Source: Halarcobacter mediterraneus
GTDB taxonomy: Bacteria > Campylobacterota > Campylobacteria > Campylobacterales > Arcobacteraceae
Length of the DNA: 64,000 bases
Reading direction: 5' to 3'
Assembly (NCBI RefSeq): GCF_004116625.1
Contig: NZ_NXIE01000001.1
Location: 124,001 to 188,000, forward strand
Shown here: positions 34,034 to 55,133 of the stretch, piece by piece
Layout of the letters: each line of letters opens with the position of its first letter
Numbering within the stretch: position 1 is the first letter of the stretch
The notes under the pieces: model-generated
Database searches by the model: none
Told to the model about the DNA's origin: nothing
Seen by the model: the letters and a program-made list of their open reading frames with translations, nothing else
Position numbers and translations under genes: made by a program

Positions 34034-34063
34034 GTACACCTCTAGGTACACTTAAAAGTACAC
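34034..34063. repeat. three GTACAC iterons, 12-bp spacing, upstream of the recombinase gene
   Basis: GTACAC occurs at 34034, 34046 and 34058, exactly 12 bases apart, ending 33 bases before the recombinase start. Regular spacing close to a helical turn suggests binding sites for the recombinase, an excisionase or a repressor. Confidence 0.6.
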
Positions 34064-34095
34064 CTTTATTTTGGATGTATTTTAAAAGGATTAAT

Positions 34096-35304
34096 ATGAA
34101 CAAGTATATTAGTATTGAAATTCCTAATAAAGATTGTAAAGGTATGTTCTTTAATTGTGAAACAGATTTAAAAAAAATTACATCTGTAAAAGAAGCAAAT
34201 AAACTTATTGGAAAAGTTTTCAAGATACAATTAAGAACAAGAGTAAATGGTAAGATGGGTAAAAAGATATTTACTTTTGAAAGTAAAAAGATTACTTTTT
34301 TAAAAGCTATTGAGTATGTAGCTAGCAAAAGAACAGAAGTAAGAGAAATTCTAAAAAACAATGGAACTTTACGTAAACAAAAAAAAGTGGAGGAGTCTTC
34401 TGTTAAAATAGAAGAGGGAGAAACTTTTTTAGATAAAGTTGAAACTTTTCTTGAAACAAAAGAGATTTCAGCAAGAAAATCAACTATTCAAAACTATTCA
34501 ACTGCTTTAAATATACACTCAAAACCATTACATAACAAATCTATTGAAAGTATTACAATAAATGATGTTCAAAAAATAATAAATAGTATGTTGACAAATA
34601 GAGCAGCAGCAACAGTTGTTTTATATGCTAGAACATTAAGAGCTTTTCTAGCAAAGCATAAGGCATCAGTGATTAATGAGTGGGAAGAACTATCATTACC
34701 TCATGTTGATAATAAAGTGGACTATACACTAAGTTTAAAAGATACCAAGAAAATTATATATGCAATGAGAAATTATAGTGGTACAGAAATTGAAGGCGAA
34801 ACTTTTTATCAGTTTGAGGAGATAAAAAATATATTCACTTTCTTACTTTCTGGAAGAAGGATTAATGAAGTATTACAGTTAAAATATAATGATATTAATT
34901 TAGAAGAAAAGACATTTAAAGTACCAGCTTCAACTGCTAAGGGAAAAAAAGAATTAGTTTTTAATCTTGATAATTATTTATTAGATGCAATTAAAAGTCA
35001 AGCTAGATTAAATAGGATTGATTTATCAAAAAATTTAATAGATAAAAAACTTTTTAAATATACAAAAGAAACACCAAGGGTACACTTCCAAAATCTTTTA
35101 AGAGCAATGGGATTACCAAAATTAAGGCTACATGACATAAGACATATGTTAGCAACAACACTTGTGCAAAATAAAGTTCCTATTGCAGATATTAGTGTTT
35201 TACTTGGACATAGTAGTATTGCAATAACAGAAGCTAGATATGCAAATAAAAGTAAAGATCAGGCGAGTAGAGCACTTGATGCTTTTAATGATATTATAAA
35301 ATAA
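34096..35304 (+). CDS. tyrosine recombinase / integrase
   Basis: This 402-aa phage-type integrase starts at the ATG at 34096 (AAAAGGATTAAT just upstream); an ATG at 34075 is less likely. It has an N-terminal arm-binding-like part, a SAM-like core-binding domain (about 110-210) and a catalytic domain. The catalytic residues are the Arg in SGRRINEVLQL, H346/R349 in HDIRH, H372 in LLGHSS and the nucleophile Y382 in EARYANKS. All are present, so it is probably active. It marks the left border of the mobile element, next to the intact TIGR02757 gene. Confidence 0.93.
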   Translation: MNKYISIEIPNKDCKGMFFNCETDLKKITSVKEANKLIGKVFKIQLRTRVNGKMGKKIFTFESKKITFLKAIEYVASKRTEVREILKNNGTLRKQKKVEESSVKIEEGETFLDKVETFLETKEISARKSTIQNYSTALNIHSKPLHNKSIESITINDVQKIINSMLTNRAAATVVLYARTLRAFLAKHKASVINEWEELSLPHVDNKVDYTLSLKDTKKIIYAMRNYSGTEIEGETFYQFEEIKNIFTFLLSGRRINEVLQLKYNDINLEEKTFKVPASTAKGKKELVFNLDNYLLDAIKSQARLNRIDLSKNLIDKKLFKYTKETPRVHFQNLLRAMGLPKLRLHDIRHMLATTLVQNKVPIADISVLLGHSSIAITEARYANKSKDQASRALDAFNDIIK

Positions 35305-37614: not shown

Positions 37615-38424
37615 ATGTCAGTAAAACCATTAAGTAACGAACAGTTAAAACAACAAGCACCAACATTGTTTACTTCAAATGCCCATAGTGAAGTAAGTTC
37701 TAAATATCACTTCATACCAACAATAGATGTGATTGAAGAGATAAAGTCACACAATTGGCATCCAGTAAGTGTAAGTCAAGCAGGTGTAAGAGATTTGCAA
37801 AAAGAAGGTTATCAACAACATTGTGTCAGATTTAGACACTTTGAGGATCTGTTAAATCCAAGTGATAATGCAGTTGAACTATTATTATTTAACTCCCATG
37901 ATAGAACTAAAGCTTTTAGTATTAGTGCAGGTATTTTTAGATTTGTATGTTCTAATGGCTTAGTAATCTCTGATAGTGTATTTGAAAGCTATAAAATAAA
38001 ACATTTAGGAGAAAGAGATAATGATGTAGCAACAGCGGTATCTAATATAACAGCTATAAAAGATAAACTTCTATTAAAAATAGACAAATTATCATCTATA
38101 AAGCTAAATGATAGTGAAAAACAATCCTTTGCTAAATCTTCAATACCTCTAAGATTTGAAGAACACCTAGAGGTTAATCCAAATGATTTACTACTACCAC
38201 ATAGAGAAGAGGATTTTCAAGATGATTTATACACAACCCTAAACATCATCCAAGAAAATCTAATAAGAGGAAATATAAAAGGGGTAAATAAACAAACCAA
38301 CAGAAAATTTACTTCTAAACAAATTTCTTCAATATCTACTGATGCAAAATTAAATAAAGAGCTTTGGGATATGGCTGAGAAAATAGCAGGTATAAAAGAA
38401 CCTGATTATCTAATGGCAGCATAA
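37615..38424 (+). CDS. DUF932 (phage/plasmid-like) protein
   Basis: This 269-aa protein matches the DUF932/TIGR03299 family found on plasmids, phages and integrated elements. Supporting segments are YHFIPTIDVIEEIKSHNWHPVSVSQ, HDRTKAFSISAGIFRFVCSNGLV and VFESYKIKHLG. The molecular role is unknown. It begins a five-gene co-directional operon (to 40317) with short gaps or overlaps. Confidence 0.85.
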   Translation: MSVKPLSNEQLKQQAPTLFTSNAHSEVSSKYHFIPTIDVIEEIKSHNWHPVSVSQAGVRDLQKEGYQQHCVRFRHFEDLLNPSDNAVELLLFNSHDRTKAFSISAGIFRFVCSNGLVISDSVFESYKIKHLGERDNDVATAVSNITAIKDKLLLKIDKLSSIKLNDSEKQSFAKSSIPLRFEEHLEVNPNDLLLPHREEDFQDDLYTTLNIIQENLIRGNIKGVNKQTNRKFTSKQISSISTDAKLNKELWDMAEKIAGIKEPDYLMAA

Positions 38425-38434
38425 GGAGTTAAAA

Positions 38435-39028
38435 ATGAAACTAGTTAATTATGCTTTACAAAACCAAATAGAGTATCTAGGGGAAAATAAATCAAATACT
38501 AACTTTAAAGAGTATTTACAATCTATTTTAGAAGATACTTCAAAGCCATACTATCAAAGAGCAGATTATATAGGTTTATCTCTAAATGAGATAAAAAGTA
38601 AGATTGATTGTCTATCAAGAGATATTAATGAACTGCAAGCACTAAAGAAGAGACTATCTTTATCTTTAGAGATTGCAAAAGAGCAGGTTGCTAATATCTT
38701 TATTGCAAATGGCATAGATAGAATAGATGGAAATATAATCTCTTCATTAACGCTGTCAAAAGAATCCTCAAAACAAAAAGACATCATTAAAGTTCTAGAT
38801 GAAAATAAAGTGATGGGATTAGGGTATGTGAAGTTTTCTGTTGATATGGATGGAATAGAAAAAGCACTAAATACAAAAGAGGGTAAAAAGGAGTTAGCAA
38901 ACTTAGTTGAACTAACCCCTCTTAGTGTAACAACCCCTTCAAAAGTAAAAGTTAATACCAAAAGAGACAAAACCAATTCGAATAATGAAACCCAAGAGAT
39001 TCTAATTATAGAAGAACAAGTTGCATAA
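38435..39028 (+). CDS. Siphovirus Gp157-like coiled-coil protein
   Basis: This 197-aa protein has a central coiled coil (about 48-85: LNEIKSKIDCLSRDINELQALKKRLSLSLE), then a small domain resembling the DUF-type Gp157 tail (IISSLTLSKES). Gp157-like proteins occur in phages and elements and were linked to bacteriophage resistance in Streptococcus. The match is by layout and is not strong. It follows the DUF932 gene by 10 bases. Confidence 0.6.
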   Translation: MKLVNYALQNQIEYLGENKSNTNFKEYLQSILEDTSKPYYQRADYIGLSLNEIKSKIDCLSRDINELQALKKRLSLSLEIAKEQVANIFIANGIDRIDGNIISSLTLSKESSKQKDIIKVLDENKVMGLGYVKFSVDMDGIEKALNTKEGKKELANLVELTPLSVTTPSKVKVNTKRDKTNSNNETQEILIIEEQVA

Positions 39029-39038
39029 GGAGTAATCT

Positions 39039-39764
39039 ATGTTTAACGATGAACAAATAAAAACATTAAAAAATGAGTTAGATTCAAATAGAATTAAATC
39101 TAGAGAAAAAGGAAATATCAACCTCTCTTATTTAGAGGGGTTTGATGTAATTGAAACAGCTAACAGTATCTTTGGCTTTGGTAATTGGTCTTATAGTGTT
39201 TCTAAACTAGAACAGGTATCACAAGAGATAAATACCAATCAAAACTATGTAGTATGTTATAAAGCAGTTCTAAAAGTATTGGTAAACAATCTTAATCATA
39301 CCCAAGAGATAAGCAGAGAAGATGTAGGCTTTGGAAATGGAATTGCTAAAACATTAGCTGATTCACATGAAAGTGGAGCAAAAGAAGCTATTACAGATGC
39401 ATTAAAAAGATGTTTAAGAAGCTTTGGTAATCAGTTTGGTAATTCTCTTTATGACAAGACTAGAAAACATAATAATGTTAATTTAGAGAATAAGGCTACA
39501 TCTAAAACTAATCAAAGTCCTTCTTCTCAAAACAACTATCAACATCCATCCTCTAATCAATTCTCCAATTCTAACCAAGGCTTTAATCAGTTTGAGTATC
39601 AATCACTATATAACTTAGGGTTAAATATTGTTGAACAAAACGGATACTTGCTTGTAACTGGTGATGATATATTCTCCAAAAAAGATTCTATTAAAGCTTG
39701 TGGGTTTAGATGGGATGGTAAAACAAAACAGTGGTATAAGGTCTTAGAGCAGGGAGCTGCATAA
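39039..39764 (+). CDS. Rad52-family single-strand annealing protein
   Basis: This 241-aa protein has a Rad52-type core at about 25-140 (GFDVIETANSIFGFGNWSYSV, SREDVGFGNGI, ESGAKEAITDALKRCLRSFGNQFGNSLYDK). A Q/N/S-rich linker follows, then a C-terminal module of about 40 residues (KACGFRWDGKTKQWYKVL) seen in other element proteins. It promotes annealing of DNA strands, useful for element replication or recombination. It overlaps the next gene by one base. Confidence 0.9.
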   Translation: MFNDEQIKTLKNELDSNRIKSREKGNINLSYLEGFDVIETANSIFGFGNWSYSVSKLEQVSQEINTNQNYVVCYKAVLKVLVNNLNHTQEISREDVGFGNGIAKTLADSHESGAKEAITDALKRCLRSFGNQFGNSLYDKTRKHNNVNLENKATSKTNQSPSSQNNYQHPSSNQFSNSNQGFNQFEYQSLYNLGLNIVEQNGYLLVTGDDIFSKKDSIKACGFRWDGKTKQWYKVLEQGAA

Positions 39765-40078
39765 TGGATACAGATACAAATGAACTAATACCTAAAGAGC
39801 TTTTAGAAACTATCCCTAATTTGTATGAAACTGAAAGAACATTAAATCCTATTTGTCATGTAAAACTATTTACACCTTTTAGTCAATGGACTTGGTATAT
39901 TATAGAAATATCTAAAGATGATTTAGATACTTGTTATGGTTATGTTCAAGGATTAGATAGTGAACTTGGATATTTTTCATTAAAAGAGTTAGCATCTATC
40001 AAAGGAGTATTTGGTTTAGGTGTTGAAAGGGATATTTGTTTTTTAGCTATACCTTTGTCTAGAGTAAAGGAGAAGTAG
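39764..40078 (+). CDS. DUF2958 protein
   Basis: This 104-aa protein matches DUF2958, a small family on plasmids and integrative elements: ICHVKLFTPFSQWTWYIIEIS, ELGYFSLKELASI and ERDICF near the C-terminus. The role is unknown. It overlaps its neighbours by one base on each side, so it is part of the same translational run. Confidence 0.82.
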   Translation: MDTDTNELIPKELLETIPNLYETERTLNPICHVKLFTPFSQWTWYIIEISKDDLDTCYGYVQGLDSELGYFSLKELASIKGVFGLGVERDICFLAIPLSRVKEK

Positions 40079-40317
40079 TGTGTTCTATATATGAAGATTT
40101 AATTCCTAAAAAAGTTTTATTCTCTTTAAAAGAGATTGAACAAATGGGAATTATAAAAACTAGTATGAGTAAAAAATTGATACTTCAAAGAAAACTAGAG
40201 ATAGTTAAAATAGGAAATAAAAATCATATATCAAGAATAGAACTTATTAGATATCTTGATGAAAATACAATATCTTTAAACTCAATTGAATTTTCTCAAA
40301 ATAAAAATATTGCCTAA
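40078..40317 (+). CDS. excisionase-like DNA-binding protein, copy 2
   Basis: This 79-aa protein starts at GTG (40078) with AAGGAG upstream. Its helix-turn-helix resembles that of the minus-strand protein at 36979-37188: VLFSLKEIEQMGIIK, KLEIVKIGNKNHISRIELIRYL. Likely an excisionase or regulator. Its stop codon lies in a hairpin (40313-40338) that probably ends the operon. Confidence 0.75.
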   Translation: MCSIYEDLIPKKVLFSLKEIEQMGIIKTSMSKKLILQRKLEIVKIGNKNHISRIELIRYLDENTISLNSIEFSQNKNIA

Positions 40318-40338
40318 GGCTACATTTGTAGCTTTAGG
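40313..40338 (+). terminator. hairpin at end of the DUF932-Rad52 operon
   Basis: An 11-bp stem (CCTAAGGCTAC at 40313-40323, GTAGCTTTAGG at 40328-40338, one G-T pair) with an ATTT loop overlaps the stop codon. No immediate T run follows. Confidence 0.6.
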
Positions 40339-40748
40339 TAGTAATCTTCTTTGAAACTATTTTTTTTAGTTCCTAACTTTGTACATTGAGAGTAAGTATA
40401 AATACCTATGTATGGTCTATTTTTATTTTTGTATACAAAGGTAATACTAGGGATATGTGTTATTTAATAATTTAGGTTTTTAATATTATATATAAACACT
40501 ATATTAGATACTACAAATAATATATAGACTATTAATACTAACAACATAACATTAAGCTATTATCAAACTATAACAACAAATAACAATCTAACCAATAACA
40601 TAACCTAGAACTATTAGCATCATCTCTTAGCTAGCAAGTCCTAACTTGCTAAGTGTAGGAAGATACCTCTATTGTCTAAGATCTATTAACTAGTAAATAT
40701 TTTTGTATACAAGATTCCTTTAACTGAATAAATATTAAAGGATAAAAA
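40339..40748. other. origin-like intergenic region upstream of the HUH protein gene
   Basis: This 410-bp gene-free stretch holds the two ATTTTTGTATACAA repeats, an 8-bp hairpin (TAGCAAGT at 40632-40639, ACTTGCTA at 40644-40651, loop CCTA) and many AAC/TAA short repeats at 40530-40610. A hairpin upstream of a HUH endonuclease gene is the expected layout of a rolling-circle double-strand origin or nick site. The role is inferred. Confidence 0.5.
40425..40712. repeat. paired 14-bp direct repeats with palindromic core
   Basis: ATTTTTGTATACAA occurs at 40425-40438 and again at 40699-40712, both containing the palindrome TTGTATACAA. They bracket the region before the HUH protein gene and could be operator or origin sites. 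Confidence 0.6.
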
Positions 40749-41339
40749 ATGAAAATAACAAAAAGAAGTAAAAAAAGAATTGCAAGTACGAAAGAGTACA
40801 TTGATGCACTACAAGAAAAACATTCTAAGTTATGTGTTGTAAGATTAGACATGGGTTATAAAAAACCTTATAGTGAAGAAATGAGTTTTAAAGAGGTACA
40901 TAAGGACATTAATAGAAACCTGAACAATAGAAGAAATAACCAATCTATCTATGAACATAATGTTGGTTATATCTTAAAAAAAGAGTACACAGAAGATAAA
41001 GGTATTCATATTCATGGTATCTTTATATTTGATGGTCAGAAGGTTCAAAAAGATGTACATAAAGCAGACCAAATAGGAAAGTACTGGGAAGAGCAAATAA
41101 CAAAGGGTAAAGGTACTTACTATAACTGTAATAAAAATAGTTACCCAGAGCATGGTATAGGTATGATTGATTATAGTGATAAAGAAAAAAGAGAGAATCT
41201 TGATAAAGCCATATCTTATTTATGTAAAGATGAACAGCATATAAATGAAGACTTAGATAAGAATTTTAGATCAATAGTAAGAGGTGCAAAGCCTAAGAAA
41301 AAGACTAATGCAGGTAGACCAAGAAGTAATAAGTTTTAA
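40749..41339 (+). CDS. HUH-type replication/nicking protein, YagK/YfjJ (inovirus Gp2) family-like
   Basis: This 196-aa protein has the two-His HUH motif as H87-I-H89 in GIHIHGIFIFDG and a candidate catalytic tyrosine Y157 with K160 in AISYLCK, the order of rolling-circle initiators. It resembles the inovirus Gp2/YagK-YfjJ domain group. Such proteins nick DNA at a hairpin origin and start rolling-circle replication. The C-terminus is basic (GAKPKKKTNAGRPRSNKF). A GGATAAAA site precedes the ATG. An origin-like region lies just upstream. Confidence 0.75.
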   Translation: MKITKRSKKRIASTKEYIDALQEKHSKLCVVRLDMGYKKPYSEEMSFKEVHKDINRNLNNRRNNQSIYEHNVGYILKKEYTEDKGIHIHGIFIFDGQKVQKDVHKADQIGKYWEEQITKGKGTYYNCNKNSYPEHGIGMIDYSDKEKRENLDKAISYLCKDEQHINEDLDKNFRSIVRGAKPKKKTNAGRPRSNKF

Positions 41340-42616: not shown

Positions 42617-42748
42617 TTACCATTCAGTCCCACAATCTCTACACATATATCCACCATCCCAATCAATAATGTCATCAGTTGAACCACAATTTGGACACTT
42701 TCGATCACGAGCAACAATAAATACATATGATGTAAAATCTATTTTCAT
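42617..42748 (-). CDS. small zinc-ribbon protein, 43 aa
   Basis: This short frame encodes 43 residues with two Cys pairs: C18-P-N-C21-G and C36-R-D-C39-G, the layout of a zinc ribbon. The ATG at 42748 has an AAAGGA site. It is divergent from an XRE regulator gene, sharing a promoter region with two copies of ATTCGCTATAG. It may bind nucleic acid or a protein partner. Confidence 0.6.
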   Translation of the reverse strand: MKIDFTSYVFIVARDRKCPNCGSTDDIIDWDGGYMCRDCGTEW

Positions 42749-42768: not shown

Positions 42769-42832
42769 ATTCGCTATAGCAAATATGATAAAAATTCTAA
42801 CCATATTAAACTTAAATTCTAATTCGCTATAG
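42769..42832. promoter_or_regulatory. two ATTCGCTATAG operator-like repeats
   Basis: ATTCGCTATAG occurs at 42769-42779 and 42822-42832, in the divergent promoter region between the zinc-ribbon gene and the XRE gene. The second copy ends 8 bases before the XRE start. Self-regulation by the XRE protein is a reasonable inference. Confidence 0.55.
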
Positions 42833-42840
42833 GAAAGTAT

Positions 42841-43089
42841 ATGTTAGAGTTTTTAGATATTGATGATAAGGATGTTAAGGAGTTTCACAAAAGAATTGTT
42901 GAAAATGTAAAAAGAATAAGAACAGCTAAAAAAGTTACTCAGGCAGATCTTGCACAAACAATTGGTCATAAGTCAGTGAGCACTATAGGACAAATAGAAT
43001 CTTATTATAAGAACAAGCATTATAATATTGAACAACTTTATAAAATATCTATTGCATTAGAAGTAGATATCTGTGAATTTTTTAAATAA
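42841..43089 (+). CDS. XRE-family DNA-binding regulator, copy 1
   Basis: This 82-aa protein has a helix-turn-helix at about 20-72 (VENVKRIRTAKKVTQADLAQ, SVSTIGQIESYYKNKHYNIEQ). It resembles the XRE protein at 49612-49848, including the YYK(N/S)KH(Y/F)N stretch. It converges on a small GVALAATG protein gene 6 bases away. The ATG overlaps the downstream edge of the ATTCGCTATAG repeats, so it is likely autoregulated. Confidence 0.85.
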   Translation: MLEFLDIDDKDVKEFHKRIVENVKRIRTAKKVTQADLAQTIGHKSVSTIGQIESYYKNKHYNIEQLYKISIALEVDICEFFK

Positions 43090-43095
43090 TTCAAA

Positions 43096-43290
43096 TTAAT
43101 TATATTTTAAATATAGAGTAACTTTTAATTGGTAGTATAAGTTATCTTCCCGTGATTTATGATTTTTATTCTCTAAGCCTACAAAAAAAGGTTTTGATTT
43201 TTTATCACAATTACAATCATCTCCTAAAAGTTTTGCTATACCGTAACCTGTTGCTGCTAATGCAACACCACCTAAAATAAATGGAAACAT
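43096..43290 (-). CDS. small GVALAATG protein, copy 1
   Basis: This 64-aa protein is read from the ATG at 43290 (GGAGG just upstream); the longer frame is unlikely. It starts with a hydrophobic, Ala/Gly-rich segment (FPFILGGVALAATGYGIAKLL), then a Cys pair (DDCNCDKKSK) and a charged tail. The first 20 residues resemble those of the protein at 48975-49619. Both genes share a 20-bp upstream motif. The hydrophobic segment could be a membrane anchor. The function is unknown. Confidence 0.65.
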   Translation of the reverse strand: MFPFILGGVALAATGYGIAKLLGDDCNCDKKSKPFFVGLENKNHKSREDNLYYQLKVTLYLKYN

Positions 43291-43335
43291 CTTATACCTC
43301 CAAAGTATTAATTTTAAAAAATATGACATAGACTT

Positions 43336-43355
43336 TGGAAAGGTTGTATCGTTTT
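43336..43355 (-). promoter_or_regulatory. 20-bp motif upstream of GVALAATG gene, copy 1
   Basis: On the minus strand this reads AAAACGATACAACCTTTCCA. It is 46 bases before the start and matches 19 of 20 bases of the motif at 48911-48930, which lies 45 bases before the other GVALAATG start. The shared position suggests a regulator site or promoter. Confidence 0.65.
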
Positions 43356-43449
43356 ATGATTTATTGTTTTGACTTTTTTTAAATTATAATATTTGTATAT
43401 TCTAATTAAATTGACTATTAATACAAAAGCTTTTGATTAATTCCAAATA

Positions 43450-43626
43450 TTAATAAAGTAAATTATCTATCTCATTTTGAGTTAAAAACTCTTTTGAAGT
43501 CAAAAAATTACCCTCTTCATCATAAAGTTGGCATGATTTCTTTTGAGATGTATCAACATCTTCAAATGCTTTTTCAACTAAAGATTCAATCTCCTCTTGT
43601 GTCAAGTACATTTGTTCCATTGTCAT
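43450..43626 (-). CDS. small protein, 58 aa, coupled to the duplicated-domain gene
   Basis: The frame starts in an ATGA overlap with the stop codon of the gene at 43623-44663, a sign of translational coupling. The 58-aa product is acidic (LTQEEIESLVEKAFEDVDTSQ) with one cysteine. The ATG at 43620 is an alternative start. No family is recognised; it may be a partner or inhibitor of the upstream protein. Confidence 0.5.
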   Translation of the reverse strand: MTMEQMYLTQEEIESLVEKAFEDVDTSQKKSCQLYDEEGNFLTSKEFLTQNEIDNLLY

Positions 43627-44663
43627 TTCTTATAATAGTATTTAAAACTTCTATCAATGGGATATTTTTTTATTATTTCTATCATCTCTTCAATACTAAA
43701 TTCTCTAAACCCTAGTTCTTCTTTTTTTTCATCATCAAGTTTTTTAAAGATTACAGACATATTTGCTCCAACTTTTCGTACATAAAGTTCTCTAGCTGGT
43801 GAATCTATTTTTTTTAAATATTGTTGAGCTTCTAATTCAGTATCAAAAAGTTCACATAAGCAACTATTAGATACATCATATGTAAGATAAAACCCCTCTT
43901 TTTTGTCATAAACTCCAAACTTTGTAAGTATCATTCGTGTATCAAAGCAGTTATCTTCGTCTAAATTATTTTCATCTATAAAATCATAAAGTTGTTCGTA
44001 AGTATGAACTTCTCCCACTTTTGATTCTAAAAACATTTTTATATTTTGTATACCAAGTTTTAAATATAGTTGTTTAAAGTCTTTAAATTCAAACTCAATT
44101 GTATAATTTAAATCTTTATTGATATTATCGTATAAAACTTCCATAAATTTTCTTTTAACACAATTTGGTATCTCTTTTACATATGTATCGAAAATCGGTT
44201 TTTGCTCTATAATACTTAATTGTTCTTTTAATGTATAGTTTTTTAAACCAAGTTGTTTTTTTCTCTCATCAGAAAGTTTTTTCAAAAGTATAAACACTTT
44301 TTTTATTACTTTTTCTTGAACAGCGTCTCTATCATAGTCATGAATACTATACAAACGCTTAGATGCTTCCCTAGAAGTATCGAATTCTTCTCCATGAACC
44401 TTATGTTTAACAACATCAATTGAATCAAACCAGTATTCACCAGAAACTAATTTATGCGTCTTTATATACTCCAAGCCATCAGTTTCTTGCTGAAATTCTC
44501 CTAGCTTTGACTCTATATACATATGTGAATTTTGAATATCCCATTCATCATAAAGCCTAAGAAAACTGTCAAGTGTAAAATAATCAAGTATTTTGTTCCC
44601 ATATGTTTTTGCCAAAGAATCTAAAAAATTTTCTTTTATCGTTTTAGATAAAGACTCTTCCAT
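43623..44663 (-). CDS. hypothetical protein with an internal duplication
   Basis: This 346-aa protein contains two related halves of about 165 residues. Matching segments are IQNSHMYIESKLGE (near 45) with IQNIKMFLESKVGE (near 208), and ILLKKLSDERKKQLGLKNYTL with IFKKLDDEKKEELGFREFSI, each followed by an isoleucine-rich helix and a proline. It has no signal peptide or membrane helix. I recognise no family. It stands between the two mirror-image XRE modules and overlaps a 58-aa gene. Confidence 0.65.
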   Translation of the reverse strand: MEESLSKTIKENFLDSLAKTYGNKILDYFTLDSFLRLYDEWDIQNSHMYIESKLGEFQQETDGLEYIKTHKLVSGEYWFDSIDVVKHKVHGEEFDTSREASKRLYSIHDYDRDAVQEKVIKKVFILLKKLSDERKKQLGLKNYTLKEQLSIIEQKPIFDTYVKEIPNCVKRKFMEVLYDNINKDLNYTIEFEFKDFKQLYLKLGIQNIKMFLESKVGEVHTYEQLYDFIDENNLDEDNCFDTRMILTKFGVYDKKEGFYLTYDVSNSCLCELFDTELEAQQYLKKIDSPARELYVRKVGANMSVIFKKLDDEKKEELGFREFSIEEMIEIIKKYPIDRSFKYYYKK

Positions 44664-44727
44664 TTTATTTCCTTATAATATATTTATATATTTTTCTAGC
44701 TTTTCTAAATATTTTATTAAAAAAACA

Positions 44728-45987
44728 TCAACAAAATAACAATTTAAGTTTATTTATATAATTTTGATTTTTTTTATAATATTCTTTTTGTTTTTTATAT
44801 ATTTGGAATAAAATTGAGTAAAAAAAAGTATCTTTATTTTTTTCAATATCAAACAAATATATATTATTTCCTGATTTAGTTTTTCCTACTTTATTAAAAC
44901 CATATTTTTCTAATTTATTTTTAAAGTGACTTCTTCCATTTGTATCTTTATATTCTACTGTAAAAACTTTTTTTACATTATGTTCAACCATAAGACTTAT
45001 TATCTTATCGCCTAAAGATGCAATAAAGTATTTAATTAATCTTTTATTATAATATTTAGAATTAACATCAATAACAAGAGAACCAACATGTAGAATTATT
45101 TCATCATTTATATTATGATCAATAATATCTTCTAACTCAAAATCATTTTCGTCAATTATGCTATTTCTTAATTTTTCATATGTATAATTTAAAACTACTT
45201 CAACATGAATAAATCCTAATATATTTTCATTTTCTTTTAAAATAGACCAAAATTTTGGTGATTTATTATAAATATCCTTGAGAGATTGAAAAGATAAAGT
45301 TTGATTATTTTGTTTGTTATCAAAATAAGATTTTTTTGCTAGTAAATCTATTTGTCTAAGTTCAATATCTGGAATAATATAATTTTCATCATAATAAGGA
45401 TAAGAAATAGAACTTATACTTTTCAGAAAAGCATTTTCTTTACTATATAGTTTCATATGTAAACATATTATTTTCTCATAAAAAATTGATATCAATATAT
45501 CACTAGAAATTATTAAAATAAGAATATATATATTTTTAAAAATAATTATACTTAAAAAGTATAAAATAGAATAAATAAGAAAAAGTTTTATAGCCAAAAC
45601 TTCTTTTTCTTGTTTATTGATTTCCCATAATAAATTCAAAAACTTTGTTAAAAATAAGTATAAAGCTATGAAAAAAATTGGATTAGGGTATTTATTATAA
45701 TCCAAAATAACTATAACAGATAAATACAATAAGATAATGATGATAAAATCAATAATAGTATGTGTAATTGTATAATCTTTTTTAGTGTATTCATTATCTG
45801 TATATAAGTAATCCATTACATAAGAGATTAATATTAATAAAAAGAGTACATACCTTTCAATATTATTTATCATATATATATAATCAAACTTATCAAGAAC
45901 ATTGTATATAACTGAACCTAAAAAGGATGGATATACTAAACCTATAATAAATTTGTGTTGTAAATTTTCTTTTTCCTCAAAACTCAC
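44728..45987 (-). CDS. six-helix membrane protein with acetyltransferase-like C-terminal domain
   Basis: This 419-aa protein has about six hydrophobic segments in the first 180 residues, then a cytosolic part of about 230 residues. The latter has the rough layout of a GNAT domain: SLVIDVNSKYYNKRLIKYFI, VKKVFTVEYKDTNGRSHFKNKLEKYGFNKVG. GNAT enzymes transfer acyl groups from CoA. The match is by layout and uncertain. No neighbour explains a substrate. The gene is part of the unrecognised block between the two XRE modules. Confidence 0.6.
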   Translation of the reverse strand: MSFEEKENLQHKFIIGLVYPSFLGSVIYNVLDKFDYIYMINNIERYVLFLLILISYVMDYLYTDNEYTKKDYTITHTIIDFIIIILLYLSVIVILDYNKYPNPIFFIALYLFLTKFLNLLWEINKQEKEVLAIKLFLIYSILYFLSIIIFKNIYILILIISSDILISIFYEKIICLHMKLYSKENAFLKSISSISYPYYDENYIIPDIELRQIDLLAKKSYFDNKQNNQTLSFQSLKDIYNKSPKFWSILKENENILGFIHVEVVLNYTYEKLRNSIIDENDFELEDIIDHNINDEIILHVGSLVIDVNSKYYNKRLIKYFIASLGDKIISLMVEHNVKKVFTVEYKDTNGRSHFKNKLEKYGFNKVGKTKSGNNIYLFDIEKNKDTFFYSILFQIYKKQKEYYKKNQNYINKLKLLFC

Positions 45988-46059
45988 TTTAAATTCTACC
46001 TTATTCTATTGATTTGCTTTGCTAGAGACTTAGTTGATAAATACTCATTTCCTTTGGTG

Positions 46060-46165
46060 TTAAAAAACATAAATTAGGATAGATAAAGTGGTTTTCCCAC
46101 ACCCACAATTAATGAGTAAATTTAACATCTGATAATGGAATTTCTGTTAGAAGTCCTAGTTTCAT
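46060..46165 (-). pseudogene. possible P-loop ATPase remnant
   Basis: On the minus strand, ATGAAACTAGGACTTC opens an 18-residue frame (MKLGLLTEIPLSD) ending at a stop. A shifted frame then reads NCGCGKTTLSIL, an almost perfect Walker A, before stopping. This looks like the start of an ATPase gene broken by frameshift and deletion. The remainder is not present. Confidence 0.35.
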
Positions 46166-46192
46166 TTAGTCTCTTTATATAAAATTTCTATG

Positions 46193-48562
46193 TTAAAAAT
46201 TCATAGTTAATTCTTTAAGGTTACCTCTTTTTATAATCTCTAATTTGATTAATAATTCAAATTTATCGAAATCTTGTTTTTCTACAATTTCATCTAGTTT
46301 TGATAACTGAAGATTGTTTTTTTCTATTAATAATGCTGCATCTTGTTTTTCAAAACTTCTTGGATATTGTATTAAAAGTACTTTTATACATTTTAAACTA
46401 TTATGTTCAATAGCTTTTTTAATAATCTCTTTTATTTCAATTTTTTCATCTGATTCTAGATGCTTATGAAGTGCATCTTCTTTATCATCTTTAATTATTA
46501 TATTAATATCAAAATGTAGACCATTATTAAGATTTTTTATGTCACTTTTTATAATATTTGAACTATTATCTTCATGACTTAAGAGATCAATATTTTTAAA
46601 TTTTTTTTGGTTTATTTTAATTAAAATATTAAAAATTGAATTGATTTGTTTATTGAAATTTGAACCAAAAGAATAAGAAGTATAGCTTAAAGTTTCGCTA
46701 ATTATTAAATCATATATCTTATTGGATTCCATACCAATATCAATAAGATTATTTATATAAGTTACTAATCTATCACTTTCTACAAATAATGCCTTTTTCA
46801 AATAAAATATCAATATAGTTGAATAGGTTTTTAATAATTCATTTTCACTTTCAGGTTCTATAGCTTTTACAAAATTAAAAAAAACTTCTTCTGTTTTACT
46901 TATGTAATCATTATTTACTCCAAGTCCATCAAGCTTTTTATATAACTCCATATACTTTAAAATAAATTTATTCTTATTTTTCTGTGATAAACTATTAAAT
47001 TTTGTAGAATTTAAAAAATGAGAATAGTGATTATTTACAATCTCAAAATTTGTTACACTACTAACTTTTATATTTAAATTATTTAAAAATTGAATGTATA
47101 TGTTAAAAGATACTCTTTCATCAATAATAAAATCATGAAGAAAAAAATCTGAATAAATTTCAATACACTCTTTAATATTTAATATACTTAGATTATTTTT
47201 TATTATCTCTTCTAATTCATTGTGTAAAGTATCAATTGTTATTAAAATAGAGTTTGATTTATATTTTTTATATTTTGAAATATAATTTACAAATTCAAGT
47301 TCATATTTAAAATTGTTTTTATTAAATATTTGTAGATAATTTTTTAAATCATTTGATAAAGATTTATTATTTGAAATAAAATTAATAAAGTCTAATTTAT
47401 AATATTCATACAAGTTATCATATAAATTTTTATAATCAAAATTATACTTTATTTCAAATATGGGATAAATATTATGCCTTAAATTATGAAAGCTAATAAT
47501 AACTTCAATAACTAATTGTATTTCATTTATCTCCTTAAGTTTTTTATTTTGAAAATATTTAAAAAAGTAGTTTATTGCTTGTTCATAATTTTTAATTTCA
47601 ATAAATTTTAGTATTGCATTAAGTGCAATAAATTCATATATTTCATGCTCTAAATATATTTTTTTTACAATTGAACAAAAAGGACACCTCTCTTTACTAG
47701 AAAGTTCCTTTACCTCTCTTAATGTAAAATCTTGAGGATAAAACATTGTTTTATAGATTAAAATATCTCGATATAAACTTTTGTCTTCATAGTATGTGTT
47801 TTTATACATCTTTTTTAATTCGTTGTATTTAAAATATGTACTTCTTGAAGCACTTAATTCCCCCTCTTTATTAAGTCTAACTTGTTTTTCTAAATTTGAT
47901 TCAGAATTAGTTTCATCTCTTCTTTCTTTACTATATAATTTTTCTTTTAAAGTAATAAAGTTTTGAGATATATGGTTAAATTTTTCATCAAACATTTTTT
48001 GCTTTAGTATATTTTCAAGTTTTTGCATTAAATTTATAGTATTACTGTCTCTATATTTATATCCCAATTTATCAATTAACTTATTATATATTGTAGCAAT
48101 AAGGATATCATCTAGTTTTTTTTCCTCATATATGGGGATAGCTTTTTCTTGATAGCCAAATTTTTCAACATAATTTATGTATATATCATCATAGCCATTA
48201 TGATTTAATATACAATATTCAATAATAGAATAGGTTAATTTTTTAAAATCATTAGGAGGTAAAGTAACTTTAGAAAAAGTAATTTGATCAACTGTTTCAC
48301 AATTTTCTAATAAATCATCCATTTTATTAACAATATCAATCATAAAAGTTTTAAAAGCTTCAAGTTTTGAAAACTCTGAAATATTCTCAAATATAAATTC
48401 TAATAAATTTAAGGATTGATATATTTGTTTATTTTTTTGAAATAGAAATAATAGGTTTTTAAGATGTTCTATGAATTCATCATCAAATTCTTTTTGTTTA
48501 AATTTAATATTTAAAATTTCATTTTCTCTTATAATTTCATCATTAATATTAGATATTGACAT
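46193..48562 (-). CDS. large hypothetical protein, 789 aa
   Basis: This 789-aa protein is rich in N, K, I and L and predicted helical throughout, with repeated alpha-helical pair-like stretches. A lone CPFC (near 291) might be a metal-binding or redox site. A polar linker lies at about 200-235 (SKERRDETNSESNLEKQ). No known domain or active-site motif is evident. It is the largest gene in the block between the two XRE modules and is read toward the membrane/acetyltransferase-like gene. Confidence 0.6.
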   Translation of the reverse strand: MSISNINDEIIRENEILNIKFKQKEFDDEFIEHLKNLLFLFQKNKQIYQSLNLLEFIFENISEFSKLEAFKTFMIDIVNKMDDLLENCETVDQITFSKVTLPPNDFKKLTYSIIEYCILNHNGYDDIYINYVEKFGYQEKAIPIYEEKKLDDILIATIYNKLIDKLGYKYRDSNTINLMQKLENILKQKMFDEKFNHISQNFITLKEKLYSKERRDETNSESNLEKQVRLNKEGELSASRSTYFKYNELKKMYKNTYYEDKSLYRDILIYKTMFYPQDFTLREVKELSSKERCPFCSIVKKIYLEHEIYEFIALNAILKFIEIKNYEQAINYFFKYFQNKKLKEINEIQLVIEVIISFHNLRHNIYPIFEIKYNFDYKNLYDNLYEYYKLDFINFISNNKSLSNDLKNYLQIFNKNNFKYELEFVNYISKYKKYKSNSILITIDTLHNELEEIIKNNLSILNIKECIEIYSDFFLHDFIIDERVSFNIYIQFLNNLNIKVSSVTNFEIVNNHYSHFLNSTKFNSLSQKNKNKFILKYMELYKKLDGLGVNNDYISKTEEVFFNFVKAIEPESENELLKTYSTILIFYLKKALFVESDRLVTYINNLIDIGMESNKIYDLIISETLSYTSYSFGSNFNKQINSIFNILIKINQKKFKNIDLLSHEDNSSNIIKSDIKNLNNGLHFDINIIIKDDKEDALHKHLESDEKIEIKEIIKKAIEHNSLKCIKVLLIQYPRSFEKQDAALLIEKNNLQLSKLDEIVEKQDFDKFELLIKLEIIKRGNLKELTMNF

Positions 48563-48974
48563 AATATTTTACAGACCTTTTTTAATATTTAAATTTTTCG
48601 AGAATAGATTTTATTTTCATTTTATTTTTTGTTTTACTAACAGCTAATATCTGATTAGAAATCTTTAAAAATAAATAATATTATATGTAATACTCTTTAA
48701 AAAATAATGAAATGTTTTATGGAAATATACTTTTTTTTACATTTATTAAAAATACTTAAACGATTTTGATTTAAGGTTAGACTATTTTAATTACAACCAA
48801 ATGGGCAGTTGATAATAGACTTTATGAGAAAAAAACAGTAGTATATGTCGATTTTTAAGGCTCTATTGCTTTTAAATAGAAAAATTTATAAAAATATTGT
48901 TTTTTTCTAAAAAACGACACAACCTTTCCATTACTAGTGTTAAACTTCTTTTATAAAACAAAAAGGAGTGACCA
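48563..48974. other. 410-bp AT-rich divergent intergenic region
   Basis: This region lies between the 789-aa gene and the second GVALAATG gene. It holds the 20-bp motif AAAACGACACAACCTTTCCA at 48911-48930 and an AAAGGAG ribosome site near 48961. I see no coding frame with a credible start and no other clear repeat. Confidence 0.5.
48911..48930 (+). promoter_or_regulatory. 20-bp motif upstream of GVALAATG gene, copy 2
   Basis: AAAACGACACAACCTTTCCA, 45 bases before the start of the second GVALAATG gene, matches 19 of 20 bases of the motif before copy 1. Conservation at the same distance from both starts suggests a shared regulator or promoter element. Confidence 0.65.
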
Positions 48975-49619
48975 ATGCTACCAGTATTTATTATAGGTGG
49001 AGTTGCATTAGCTGCAACTGGCTTTGGATTAAGAAAGTATGTCCAAGAGAATGATAAACAAGAGCTATTAGAAGATGCTTATATTGGTTTTACAAATTGG
49101 GGAGATAATCTTGGAAGAAAAATAGCTGATTTTGGAGATAGCTTTTTTGAGAATAAAGATGAAGAAGAACCCAAAGATAGTATTGAAAAGTTTGATGAAC
49201 TAAGTTCTATTTTTTTTGAGCATTTAATACCAATGTTTCTAGAAACTTATGGAAGTTTTAAGAATCTTCCAGAATTAGAAATGAAGCAGTTTTATACTTT
49301 AGAATCAGAGGCAAATTATAATCTATTTAAAATAACAGATAAATCCAAAATCGAATTGGATTCTTGTGTTAGTAAATTTGCAAAGGGTATTTATGCTGTA
49401 AAAGTAGAATTAGAAGAAATAAAACTATTATGTAATGGTAATAATAATTTTAAAACTCTTTCTAAATCTACTAAGAAAAAGATTAAAAATACACATTTAC
49501 TAATGATTAGACTTATAAAGATTTATAATCATGATATCATTGATGAAGATGGTCAGTTATTAGAACAATATATAAGAGAACTAGATGAGATTAAAATTAT
49601 CGCAGATAAGATTATTTAG
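48975..49619 (+). CDS. GVALAATG protein, copy 2 (larger)
   Basis: This 214-aa protein has an N-terminal hydrophobic segment, LPVFIIGGVALAATGFGLRKYV, resembling copy 1 at 43096-43290. The rest is charged and helical (SKIELDSCVSKFAKGIYAVKVELEEI), without a recognised domain. The N-terminus could be a membrane anchor. It has AAAGGAG before the ATG and converges on an XRE gene with an 8-base overlap of 3' ends. The function is unknown. Confidence 0.65.
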   Translation: MLPVFIIGGVALAATGFGLRKYVQENDKQELLEDAYIGFTNWGDNLGRKIADFGDSFFENKDEEEPKDSIEKFDELSSIFFEHLIPMFLETYGSFKNLPELEMKQFYTLESEANYNLFKITDKSKIELDSCVSKFAKGIYAVKVELEEIKLLCNGNNNFKTLSKSTKKKIKNTHLLMIRLIKIYNHDIIDEDGQLLEQYIRELDEIKIIADKII

Positions 49620-49848
49620 TTTTTAAGAAATCACAAAGGTCAATTTCGAGAATTTGTGAGATTTTCAGAAGTTGTTCAAGATTAAAATGTTTGCTTTTAT
49701 AGTATATCTCAGCACCTGATACTACAGAGACTGATTTATATCCCATTTTTAAAGATAAATCAAGTTGAGATAACTTTTTTTCTTTTCGATATTTGGCAAC
49801 ATTTTTACCAATAGTTTTATAAAGCTGTTCAGGAGTGATATCTTGCAT
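49612..49848 (-). CDS. XRE-family DNA-binding regulator, copy 2
   Basis: This 78-aa protein has a helix-turn-helix (GKNVAKYRKEKKLSQLDLSL, SVSVVSGAEIYYKSKHFNLEQ) resembling the XRE protein at 42841-43089. Its 3' end overlaps the GVALAATG copy 2 gene, mirroring the arrangement of copy 1. It is divergent from the WYL-domain gene, so it may control both. Confidence 0.85.
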   Translation of the reverse strand: MQDITPEQLYKTIGKNVAKYRKEKKLSQLDLSLKMGYKSVSVVSGAEIYYKSKHFNLEQLLKISQILEIDLCDFLKTK

Positions 49849-49874
49849 ATTAATACAACCTACTATAAGAGATA

Positions 49875-50687
49875 ATGGTAGAAGTTTATCTTATATGTAT
49901 AGATAACTCAATCAGTAAATATACAATGTATTATACGAAGGACTTAAATGAAAGATTAAGTTTAATGCCTATAGAGAAAAAAGGCAAATATTATAGTTTA
50001 GAAGGTTATGCCCTGGGTAAATTAGGTTTTAATGATATAAAGAACTTTGCAACACTAAGTGGTATAAAGTCTTTATATCCTGATTTAACTAATGAGTTTA
50101 TTACTGATATTTTAAACTCAAAACTAAATAATGCATATCTTATAAAAAACCAAGGTTTTGAAGATATTAGTAATAGGAAACAAGACTTTGAAGATTTAAG
50201 TGGAGCTATTCTTAGGAATAGCCCAGTAAATTTTATTTACTATAAAAAACAAAGAAAAGTAAATCCATATAAACTTATCAATAATAATGGTATTTGGTAT
50301 CTTCTGGCAGATGAAAATGATAAACTAAAAACATTTACTTTTTCAAAAATTACTAAATTTAGGTGGGAAGATGAGAATAAAAAATTCTCTCCTAAAAAAG
50401 ATTTTTTAAAAGAGCTTGAACAAAATAAAAGTAATTGGTATACCGATAAAATTGAAGTTATTCTACAAGTAGACAATGAAGCAAAAGAATATTTTAATAG
50501 AAAAGAGATATTCCCAAATCAAAAGATACTTGATAAGAATGATGAATATTTGACTATTTCTACAAAAGTATCTTATGATGATGAAGTATTAAAAGTTGTT
50601 AAGTATTGGATACCTTATATTAAGATTGTTGAGCCAGTATATTTGAAAGAGAAGTTAGCTAAATTATTAAAAACTTATATATCTTAG
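49875..50687 (+). CDS. WYL-domain regulator, N-terminally unusual
   Basis: This 270-aa protein has a WYL domain (about 115-170: FIYYKKQRKVNPYKLINNNG, WYLLADENDKLKTFTFSKI). WYL proteins are usually ligand-sensing transcription regulators of defence systems and carry an N-terminal winged helix. Here the first 28 residues do not form a recognisable helix-turn-helix, and the KDLNERLSLMPIEKKGKYYSLEGY stretch resembles the region just after it, so the DNA-binding part may be lost. It precedes hsdM by 89 bases and is divergent from XRE copy 2. Confidence 0.8.
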   Translation: MVEVYLICIDNSISKYTMYYTKDLNERLSLMPIEKKGKYYSLEGYALGKLGFNDIKNFATLSGIKSLYPDLTNEFITDILNSKLNNAYLIKNQGFEDISNRKQDFEDLSGAILRNSPVNFIYYKKQRKVNPYKLINNNGIWYLLADENDKLKTFTFSKITKFRWEDENKKFSPKKDFLKELEQNKSNWYTDKIEVILQVDNEAKEYFNRKEIFPNQKILDKNDEYLTISTKVSYDDEVLKVVKYWIPYIKIVEPVYLKEKLAKLLKTYIS

Positions 50688-53580: not shown

Positions 53581-54162
53581 ATGAATGATAATTTTAGAAA
53601 AATTAATTTATACATATTGTCACTAGGGCTTTTATTTGCATTTTTCATTATTATTACTATTAAGTTTCCTAATGATTGTTTCAATATTAAAGATTTAGAG
53701 GACTGGAAAGATATTTTATTATCAAATGTTATCCCAATTATTTGTTTAATAATGCTTTTTTACAGTTTCTTTGCTTATAAGAAATTTGAATTTGATTTAA
53801 AAGGAACAACAGATATTCCTTTTACCGTGACAAAAGTTGAAAGTATAAACTATGAACATTTAACATTTTTAGCAACATATATTATTCCATTAATAAGTTT
53901 TGATTTTGAAAGTGTTCGTCAAATGATTGTTTTAGGTTTATTACTTGTTGTAATGGGTGTGATATATATTAAGACTGATTTATTCTATGCAAATCCATCA
54001 TTGGCATTATTGGGATTTTATATATATAAAGCCAATGGCTCTTTTAAAAATGGAATTAGAGATGATATTGTTATTATAAGTCGTGAAAAATTTATTGTTG
54101 GACAGAAAGTTTCATATATAAAACTTGATGACAGAATTTATTATGCTAAAGGAGTAAATTAG
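53581..54162 (+). CDS. kwaA: Kiwa defence membrane protein KwaA-like
   Basis: This 193-aa protein has four predicted membrane helices (about 8-26, 44-64, 92-106 and 113-131) and a conserved-looking segment LFYANPSLALLGFYIYKA near residue 135. Size, helix number and a KwaB-like gene overlapping by one base match the Kiwa antiphage system. Kiwa's KwaA sits in the inner membrane and works with KwaB. I identify it by layout and context rather than by a database search. Confidence 0.75.
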   Translation: MNDNFRKINLYILSLGLLFAFFIIITIKFPNDCFNIKDLEDWKDILLSNVIPIICLIMLFYSFFAYKKFEFDLKGTTDIPFTVTKVESINYEHLTFLATYIIPLISFDFESVRQMIVLGLLLVVMGVIYIKTDLFYANPSLALLGFYIYKANGSFKNGIRDDIVIISREKFIVGQKVSYIKLDDRIYYAKGVN

Positions 54163-55133
54163 TGAATATAGAAGAATTAAAAAATGAAATTGAATTTTTT
54201 AATGATAATACGGATGAAATAGGTGTTTCAATTTATGCTGTCTTAAAAAATGAATTAAATCCTGTTAAGCTAGACATAGAAAGTGAAGCTTTAAATGGTC
54301 TAAAAACATTATTTTTAGATAGTCTAAATGAAACTATTATTAATAATGATGAACTTTCTGTTTTAAATTTATCTTCATCTGATGATAGAGTAAATGCAAT
54401 TTACCAGTATGATGTTGATATTCCAGATGAATTATCTTGTATTAATAGTGTAATAACTACTGATAATTTACCTTTGATGAATATTTCTGATACAAGTTTA
54501 TTAGATGTTCAATCTCTACTAATTGAAATTGGTAATGATGAGAAACAAATGGTTTTATATAAAACTATGGCTTCTATTAATATTTATGGTCGAACTAATT
54601 TCTTTTTGAAAAAGAGTAAAACAAGACTTACTAAAATTGATGATGAATTTTTAAGAGTAAGTTCAAACTTCCAATTAATGAGAGTTAATAATGAGTTATT
54701 TGTAATTGATTTAAAAAGTTTAGAAAAAAATTTTGGATTTCATGAGGTTATTAAAAAAGAAGCAACTCTTGGAGTAACTGCTATTGAAAATATATTACTA
54801 GTAGAAAATACGGAAGTTTTACATGAACTTATTGAAGATGTAAAATATGCAAGAAAATTTACAAAAGTAGCTAAATCATCTCCTGTATTAAAAGCTAAAA
54901 TTCCAAATCAAAATATAATAAATTTTTGTAAAGCTTTCCCTAGATTAGTTGGAAAGATTAGATTTAATCAAAGTGAAGATAAAATCCTACTAGATACTAA
55001 AGTTTCTAAAGATTTATTTATCAAAGTATTAATGGATGACTTTTTAACATCAGAACTTACTAAATTCCATTATGAAAGTGTTGCTAAAGATGGGTTAGAT
55101 GAAGATAGTAGTGATGAAGTAGAAGAAAGTTAA
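54162..55133 (+). CDS. kwaB: Kiwa defence protein KwaB-like (DUF4868)
   Basis: This 323-aa protein starts at GTG (54162), overlapping kwaA's stop by one base, with GGAG upstream. The segment LMRVNNELFVIDLKSLEKNFGFHEVIKKEA (near 173) resembles DUF4868, the domain of KwaB. The protein is cytoplasmic with an acidic tail (DEDSSDEVEES). In the known system KwaB acts with KwaA against phage DNA. It is followed 28 bases later by an unknown gene. Confidence 0.75.
   Translation: MNIEELKNEIEFFNDNTDEIGVSIYAVLKNELNPVKLDIESEALNGLKTLFLDSLNETIINNDELSVLNLSSSDDRVNAIYQYDVDIPDELSCINSVITTDNLPLMNISDTSLLDVQSLLIEIGNDEKQMVLYKTMASINIYGRTNFFLKKSKTRLTKIDDEFLRVSSNFQLMRVNNELFVIDLKSLEKNFGFHEVIKKEATLGVTAIENILLVENTEVLHELIEDVKYARKFTKVAKSSPVLKAKIPNQNIINFCKAFPRLVGKIRFNQSEDKILLDTKVSKDLFIKVLMDDFLTSELTKFHYESVAKDGLDEDSSDEVEES

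Follow-up and report, generated by a model that had tools for sequence, protein, structure and literature searches.

The 64,000-nt stretch of Halarcobacter mediterraneus DNA analyzed here (hereafter, the window) carries two convergent gene pairs, each made up of a gene for a small XRE protein with a helix-turn-helix (HTH) and a gene for a small protein with the motif GVALAATG near its N-terminus, which we call GVAL (XRE1/GVAL1 and GVAL2/XRE2; Table 1). Both pairs are probably worn versions of one control-and-membrane module, which adjoins exchangeable anti-phage defense genes in related bacteria. With slightly more confidence than doubt, we read GVAL as the constant, N-terminally membrane-anchored member of a Campylobacterota anti-phage cassette, in which the effectors are exchanged and a promoter marked by a dyad would be activated by a WYL-domain regulator. 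Across the loci compared, the constants are the dyad and a nearby WYL regulator, the XRE gene is optional (10 of 19), and the neighbors are exchangeable defense genes.

Recurrence of GVAL with a dyad and a WYL regulator

Nineteen genes with the exact GVAL motif were collected from 18 genomes or contigs: two from the window, five from a scan of the family (6 of 104 genomes positive), eight from a scan of the order (11 of 398 positive), and four from a genome collection, in which 12 of 57 pattern matches were genuine and the other 45 were judged to be chance matches, being internal, high-GC, or not GVAL-like. Title or kinship places all of the genes in Campylobacterota, except one contig in a Candidatus Gracilibacteria metagenome-assembled genome (L115; G and L numbers are our handles for genomes and loci), which is probably misbinned because its GVAL and WYL sequences closely resemble those of Campylobacterota. 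An XRE gene converges on GVAL in 10 of the 19 (the window twice, G060, G011, G023, G024, G269, L095, L127, and L142), the coding ends overlapping by 4 nt in seven pairs and by 8 nt in two, with a 6-nt gap in window copy 1. Beside GVAL at the other nine loci, tblastn with XRE1 and XRE2 found no relative of either in the stretches scanned; this recheck was made because our lists of open reading frames (ORFs) omit those that overlap longer ones, and the genes following dyads were read directly. Two more loci (G008 and G050) pair an XRE2 relative with a diverged GVAL, and a diverged GVAL is also present at the G038 locus.

The dyad, CGACA-N5-TGTCR, lies upstream of GVAL, 43 to 50 nt before the ATG. 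At that distance, 17 of the 19 genes carry CGACAYNACCTGTCR with at most one mismatch, and the two window copies carry it with two and three, the right half being changed in both. GVAL1 and GVAL2 have a common upstream motif, AAACGAYACAACCTTTCC, about 45 nt before the start (two sites in the window versus 0.04 expected at up to three mismatches), and no other exact site occurs in their own genome. The dyad consensus was derived from the first seven genes, and eight of the 12 genuine GVAL genes of the genome collection fall outside that set. The dyad was present at all 12, versus none of 22 other matches with a nearby start codon (best, four mismatches); a further 23 matches without a nearby start were left unscored. 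Across 26 loci (420 kb), there were 23 dyad sites at up to one mismatch versus 0 in shuffled sequences (first-order Markov resamplings, five per locus), and 30 versus 1.6 at up to two. Genome-wide, 14 perfect ACGACAYNACCTKTC sites were found in 16 genomes, all of them at the cassette, in 14 of the 16.

Twenty-nine sites were aligned, namely, the 30 with up to two mismatches, minus L064:10338 and L186:225, which are not in promoter position, plus the GVAL1 site with its three mismatches. These sites are not independent, since the G023 and G024 sequences are nearly identical at this locus, and several of the Campylobacter-family sites are close copies of one another. The genes that follow encode 15 exact GVAL proteins, seven diverged GVAL-like proteins (G050, G008 twice, G030, G039, G038, and G015), two other small hydrophobic proteins, two GTPases, and two other proteins, and one gene is cut by a contig end. 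A −10-like hexamer begins 11 nt after the dyad (TANNNT in 24 of the 29, NANNNT in all), and the best −35 match, 16 to 18 nt upstream of this hexamer, agrees at no more than three of six positions in any of the 29. Taking the hexamer as −12 to −7, the dyad would span about −38 to −24, which is the −35 region. As a separate observation, a dyad also precedes a small hydrophobic protein of a second kind, 71 to 73 aa long (MAI.IGIIVMIATAIWAIVCG...) at two Campylobacter-family loci (L060, 8102-8057 downwards; L062, 8930 onwards).

The best WYL match is no more than about 10 kb away in each of the 16 genomes tested (14 with an exact and two with a diverged GVAL), at 50 to 100% identity to the G023 query. 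WYL genes near GVAL were also found in L115 and L142; none was found in the short stretches scanned of L095 and L127. The G023 relative has an N-terminal HTH (HTH_11, 1.4e-8, residues 11 to 47) followed by a WYL domain (1.6e-8), and this regulator beside GVAL is encoded next to defense systems. Close WYL genes number 18 in 17 of the 104 family genomes, and 14 of the 18 have a nearby dyad in promoter position at up to two mismatches; five such loci (G030a, G038, G039, G015, and G047) have no relative of XRE1 or XRE2 in the stretch scanned.

The defense genes beside GVAL or the dyad vary from relative to relative. In terms of PADLOC systems, they include (i) Bunzi (BnzA/BnzB in G060 and L142), (ii) PDC-M40 (PDC-M40B in G011, G100, and G030, and together with BnzA in G038), (iii) Leo (LeoA/LeoBC-like GTPases in G285, G271, and L095, weakly in L127), (iv) Juk (JukA joined to a GTPase in G376), (v) HerA-type systems (HerA/mad8-like proteins in G381, G269, and G015), and (vi) PDC-M09 (PDC-M09A in G008 and a weak PDC-M09B match in G023). 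An IIGP/LeoA-like GTPase occurs in G050, and a dynamin-type GTPase (G241) and an RCC1-repeat protein (G024) have no PADLOC match. By eye, the G313 and G130 genes resemble BnzAB and the G285 GTPases. Unlike these relatives, the window matched no cassette effector system in PADLOC among the scanned genes between and beside its modules.

Proposed control of the cassette

In the cassette we propose, the WYL regulator would bind the dyad that covers the −35 region of the GVAL promoter and, at some loci, that of additional cassette promoters. On sensing infection, it would switch the promoter on, as DriD and PafBC respond to single-stranded DNA, and GVAL and the defense genes would then be produced. 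GVAL itself is predicted to have a single hydrophobic N-terminal helix, rich in small residues, followed by a helical part of varying length in the cytoplasm, and it would position or prime the effector at the inner membrane. In a variant found mostly on integrative elements, a small XRE repressor would be inserted tail-to-tail with GVAL and head-to-head with the effector, its own regulatory region adding a second, local control of effector output. The window would hold two modules on an island of about 31 kb, the four genes between them being a candidate effector set.

We lean toward activation by the WYL regulator because the spacing between dyad and −10-like hexamer is constant and a good −35 that could be blocked is lacking. 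This layout, as predicted from sequence, resembles that of the WYL activator DriD, whose pseudo-palindromic sites are described as overlapping a poor −35 and keeping a constant distance to the −10 (PMC12340889). The likeness is one of promoter layout; DriD and PafBC have been described as acting on DNA-damage genes in Caulobacter and mycobacteria.

The direction of control may nevertheless be the opposite, which weighs against our reading, as BrxR and CapW are repressors. The cassette would then be the same, with a WYL repressor released by infection, a real possibility that we consider somewhat less probable. BrxR represses by binding inverted repeats of 11 bp that are separated by a 5-bp spacer (PMC9122601), and CapW represses through palindromes overlapping the −10 (PMC9122588). 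This family has in common with the cassette an HTH-plus-WYL regulator beside varied defense systems and a promoter dyad of 5-bp spacing; a dyad over the −35 region would block polymerase as well. However, the fixed distance to the −10-like hexamer and the poor −35 fit an activator better, and the half-sites here are 5 nt, versus 10 to 11, so that the BrxR and CapW palindromes are longer than the GVAL dyad. The systems differ further in that no dyad site lay directly upstream of a WYL gene in the 26-locus scan, and in the constant GVAL.

The GVAL protein

Alignment of GVAL1 with GVAL2 is confined to the N-terminus (43% over 44 columns, E 2e-7; 59% over residues 5 to 26), and what they have in common amounts to about 26 N-terminal residues and the promoter motif. 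Among 11 aligned members, the invariant residues (M1, G8, G9, A11, L12, A13, A14, T15, G16, and G18) all fall within the first 18. The C-terminal part varies and has almost disappeared in some members (GVAL1, 64 aa; the Sulfurospirillum cavolei member, 88 aa). From composition and hydropathy, we read the N-terminus as a membrane anchor. The predicted GVAL2 model (predicted local distance difference test [pLDDT] score, 73.7) consists entirely of helices, predicted with fair confidence in the C-terminal part and poorly at the N-terminus, and neither Foldseek (best E 0.4 for the C-terminal part) nor VIA-align (best Z 7.6, a value within the range seen for common helical bundles) gave a convincing structural relative. 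No named family in Pfam, PHROGs, or NCBIfam matched GVAL1 or GVAL2 above the curated cut-off, and PADLOC models matched neither GVAL2 nor the G100 member. Only weak matches of GVAL2 were found, e.g., to mSLOG (0.0095) and to PHROGs of unknown function (0.013 and 0.018), and GVAL2 had no plasmid match. In the literature, we found no paper naming a GVALAATG protein or the dyad, the motif letters themselves not being searchable.

Confinement of the invariant residues to the N-terminus, beside a C-terminal part that can nearly disappear, would also suit a killer, that is, a small membrane protein that oligomerizes and damages the inner membrane of the infected cell, while the other genes serve as its sensors or partners. 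We consider this doubtful, since most members have a long C-terminal part and since Bunzi, Juk, and similar companions are known elsewhere as defense systems that lack GVAL. Going beyond the anchored cassette member that we favor, GVAL might found a family of membrane adaptors, with a fixed WYL sensor, promoter, and platform and a plug-in slot for effectors, in which case positions 43450-48562 would be a new effector set; this extension appears unlikely to us.

The XRE proteins

XRE1 and XRE2 are 46% identical over 76 aa (E 1e-24). This family is abundant, with a match at E ≤ 1e-9 in 70 of the 104 family genomes. Three other members in the same genome (49 to 56%, 67.8 to 72.3 bits) resemble XRE2 about as closely as XRE1 does (48%, 68.4 bits). 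Because of this abundance and these three equally near members, the similarity is no evidence of a specific XRE1/XRE2 duplication, which we reject. The original prediction had described both pairs as paralogous and had made protein-level homology and recurrence elsewhere its test. Homology holds for the XRE proteins and, for GVAL, at the N-termini only, and the pair recurs at eight further loci with the exact GVAL motif and at two more with a diverged GVAL, so the outcome that it had named as refuting did not occur.

Close relatives of XRE2 (at least 71%) number 11 in the 104 family genomes, its own included: seven stand tail-to-tail with GVAL or a diverged GVAL, three adjoin another gene (G058, G085, and G061), and G001 is the remaining one. 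Aligned upstream regions of 14 XRE2-type genes have common blocks with many columns at least 85% conserved, G058, G085, G269, and L142 showing departures. This region differs from the GVAL dyad, and the repeat upstream of XRE1 is unlike it. In the XRE-bearing loci, the XRE start lies roughly 80 to 360 nt from the divergent next gene, and in relatives XRE2 is tail-to-tail with GVAL and head-to-head with a defense gene. We infer that XRE would control itself and the defense gene.

Two further observations concern XRE genes away from GVAL. XRE2-type genes lie beside or overlap non-GVAL genes at L145 (6480-7768), L146 (6436-7274), and L147 (3301-6288), where the neighbors are, by eye, a restriction endonuclease, a nitroreductase, and a type III restriction subunit; genes of this clade may cap the ends of other genes as well. 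In G313, an XRE1-like gene (L064, 3453-3686; 54% to XRE1) lies 4.9 kb from GVAL and is not convergent with it.

The original prediction had likened the small hydrophobic protein and its XRE neighbor to a toxin-antitoxin system or to phage-type control. A type II pair with GVAL as toxin and XRE as antitoxin would account for a small hydrophobic protein adjoining a small XRE protein, and XRE1 is weakly similar to the HipB antitoxin model (2.6e-5, 24 bits versus a cut-off of 79). However, 9 of the 19 GVAL genes have no XRE partner, so the pair is not obligate; the genes are convergent with separate upstream regions rather than in one operon; relatives of XRE2 adjoin other genes as well; and GVAL is tied to WYL and the dyad beside defense genes. 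We regard such a pair as very improbable.

Phage-type control fared no better. In IMG/VR, none of five GVAL pattern matches has a dyad within 150 nt; one of them, L189, has its start codon four codons before a variant of the motif, at 54% GC. A dyad scan of the same database gave 61 matches, of which the 25 below 42% GC were inspected, and none of the 25 has a GVAL-like start within 100 nt downstream. Within this scope, IMG/VR gave no sign of a phage-borne module. Most XRE-bearing modules do sit on one integrative backbone (G060, G011, G023, G024, L127, and L142), as would be expected if they exerted lysogeny-type control of an integrative element with the defense genes as passengers. That explanation, too, seems to us highly unlikely: Campylobacter-family and Sulfurospirillum loci show GVAL, dyad, and WYL with no backbone gene among the ORFs listed, and the stretches scanned hold no dyad at integrase or replication genes.

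Mirror-image arrangement and state of the window modules

As the original prediction described, XRE1/GVAL1 and GVAL2/XRE2 are convergent pairs in mirror orientation, with 5.7 kb between the two GVAL genes and a middle block of four unrecognized genes; its coordinates and layout hold (Table 1). These four genes are all on the minus strand and encode 789, 419, 346, and 58 aa. The G+C content of the window is 26%. The best inverted DNA repeat consists of the GVAL gene starts (51 nt at 78%), and another match lies inside the XRE genes (47 nt at 79%). An invertible segment or transposon ends had been considered as the cause of the mirror image and were discarded on these two matches, the 51-nt repeat being too short and too diverged. 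Since XRE1 is no special relative of XRE2 and the GVAL proteins are alike only in some 26 residues and the promoter motif, the mirror image is, judged from sequence, two modules of one kind and not a recent inverted duplication.

Table 1. Features of the two modules, the genes between them, and the surrounding island (window positions)
Feature	Position	Strand	Description
Left att-like direct repeat	34046..34067		22 nt; 1 mismatch to the copy at contig C1:189478-189499 (L046 1478-1499)
Tyrosine integrase of island	34075..35304	+	Phage_integrase, 3.8e-21
Island backbone	37615..41339	+	DUF932, 197 aa, Rad52-like, 104 aa, 79 aa, YfjJ-type 196 aa
43-aa ORF	42617..42748	-	Zinc-ribbon-like by eye (CPNC/CRDC); head-to-head with XRE1
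Twin TTCGCTATAG-type repeat	42770..42838		Upstream of XRE1; possible XRE1 operator
XRE1	42841..43089	+	Cro/C1-type HTH protein, 82 aa
GVAL1	43096..43290	-	64 aa, short version; N-terminal hydrophobic segment with GGVALAATGYG; ATG at 43290 chosen as best start
Degenerate dyad of GVAL1	43337..43351	-	CGATA-N5-TTTCC; 3 mismatches to CGACAYNACCTGTCR
58-aa ORF	43450..43626	-	Last gene of the middle block
346-aa protein	43623..44663	-	Two internal repeats by eye
419-aa protein	44728..45987	-	Multispanning N-terminus by eye
789-aa protein	46193..48562	-
Degenerate dyad of GVAL2	48915..48929	+	CGACA-N5-TTTCC; 2 mismatches to CGACAYNACCTGTCR
GVAL2	48975..49619	+	214 aa; N-terminal hydrophobic segment and helical C-terminal part
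XRE2	49612..49848	-	78 aa; 8-nt overlap with GVAL2 end
Conserved XRE2 upstream region	49849..49937	-	ATACAYTGTAT block, AAGATAAACTT, ATAGTAGGTTGTA; alignment of 14
WYL regulator remnant	49875..50687	+	WYL and WCX domains kept, HTH lost

The cassette in the window is worn, the WYL gene having lost its DNA-binding half and both dyads being degenerate. Module 1 consists of a short GVAL with an XRE from another branch. Module 2 is without the defense genes that other loci carry there and without the DNA-binding half of its WYL regulator: the remnant matches WYL and WCX only, and aligns with the G023 relative only from residue 42 or 43 on (49938). This junction abuts the conserved XRE2 upstream region, at the point where other element loci carry defense genes, and the simplest account would be a deletion that removed the effector genes together with the HTH. 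A search of the window's own genome at E ≤ 1e-15 gave no further WYL gene of this type.

The four middle genes might be the effectors of module 1. We offer this as a guess from gene order, because the large genes, dyad, and GVAL that follow one another on one strand in the window (789-419-346-58, dyad 1, GVAL1) recur in the same order at the Campylobacter-family loci L059 and L061. That these genes are instead unrelated cargo, the mirror layout being an accident of two separate insertions, comes close to an even chance; it would agree with the lack of a special XRE1-XRE2 relationship and of a long inverted repeat, and with the 789- and 346-aa proteins having no relative in the 103 other family genomes (at E ≤ 1e-10 and E ≤ 1e-6, respectively), and the recurring gene order speaks against it. 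The 789-aa protein had no plasmid match and the 419-aa protein no viral relative, and neither had a sequence match in the PDB. The model of the 419-aa protein is too poor to classify (pLDDT 47.7), and the idea that its C-terminus is an acetyltransferase was dropped, as no search supports it.

Weighing the cassette

Several findings, apart from the possible repression noted above, count against GVAL being an anchored cassette member under a WYL-activated dyad. For the protein, the hydrophobic segment is modest (best 17-residue hydropathy mean, 1.56 to 2.15 in seven peptides) and is the least confident region of the GVAL2 model. GVAL has only 64 to 120 aa in several loci, and some WYL cassettes have no GVAL-like first gene (G047, the second G030 locus, and G096), so GVAL cannot be a strict subunit everywhere; nor are the HerA-type effectors obviously membrane proteins. 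For the dyad, a first, narrower motif also matched G004 and G014 away from GVAL, and at one mismatch the 16 genomes hold 26 sites versus 30 for a reversed control, i.e., no enrichment, so that only perfect sites and position carry weight. Four of the 18 close WYL genes lack a convincing dyad (G029 and G037, both with an internal stop, G040, and G096). Finally, no recognizable cassette effector is left in the window, and its interpretation rests on relatives.

How infected cells turn on their defense genes is known for few systems. If the cassette is as proposed, a constant frame of dyad, GVAL, and WYL beside at least six kinds of defense genes would amount to one regulatory code serving many systems, and searching for the dyad and reading the surrounding genes would be a route to new effectors. 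It would also provide a test of whether a small membrane protein can be a common part of unrelated defenses.

The integrative island

Both modules lie on an island of about 31 kb, the second att-like copy being 1.5 kb beyond the window; the 22-nt direct repeats are likely its att sites. Parts of the island backbone adjoin GVAL/XRE in relatives. Other island genes include those of a type I restriction system (HsdM, HsdS, and HsdR), inside which Kiwa genes (53581-55133; KwaA, 3.4e-76; KwaB, 1.8e-126) stand behind HsdS, with the candidate defense pair PDC-M62A/B (57746-60456) in the same locus. An Abi_2 protein is encoded at 56799-57749 (5.8e-56). Between the integrase and DUF932 genes, a 335-aa protein (35944-36948) has no match in Pfam (E ≤ 0.001) or NCBIfam (E ≤ 0.1). 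Just inside the right end of the island (L046, 1-1217), a gene for an XRE-like protein (80 aa) overlaps one for a protein of 328 aa, an arrangement that, by eye, is HipB/HipA-like.

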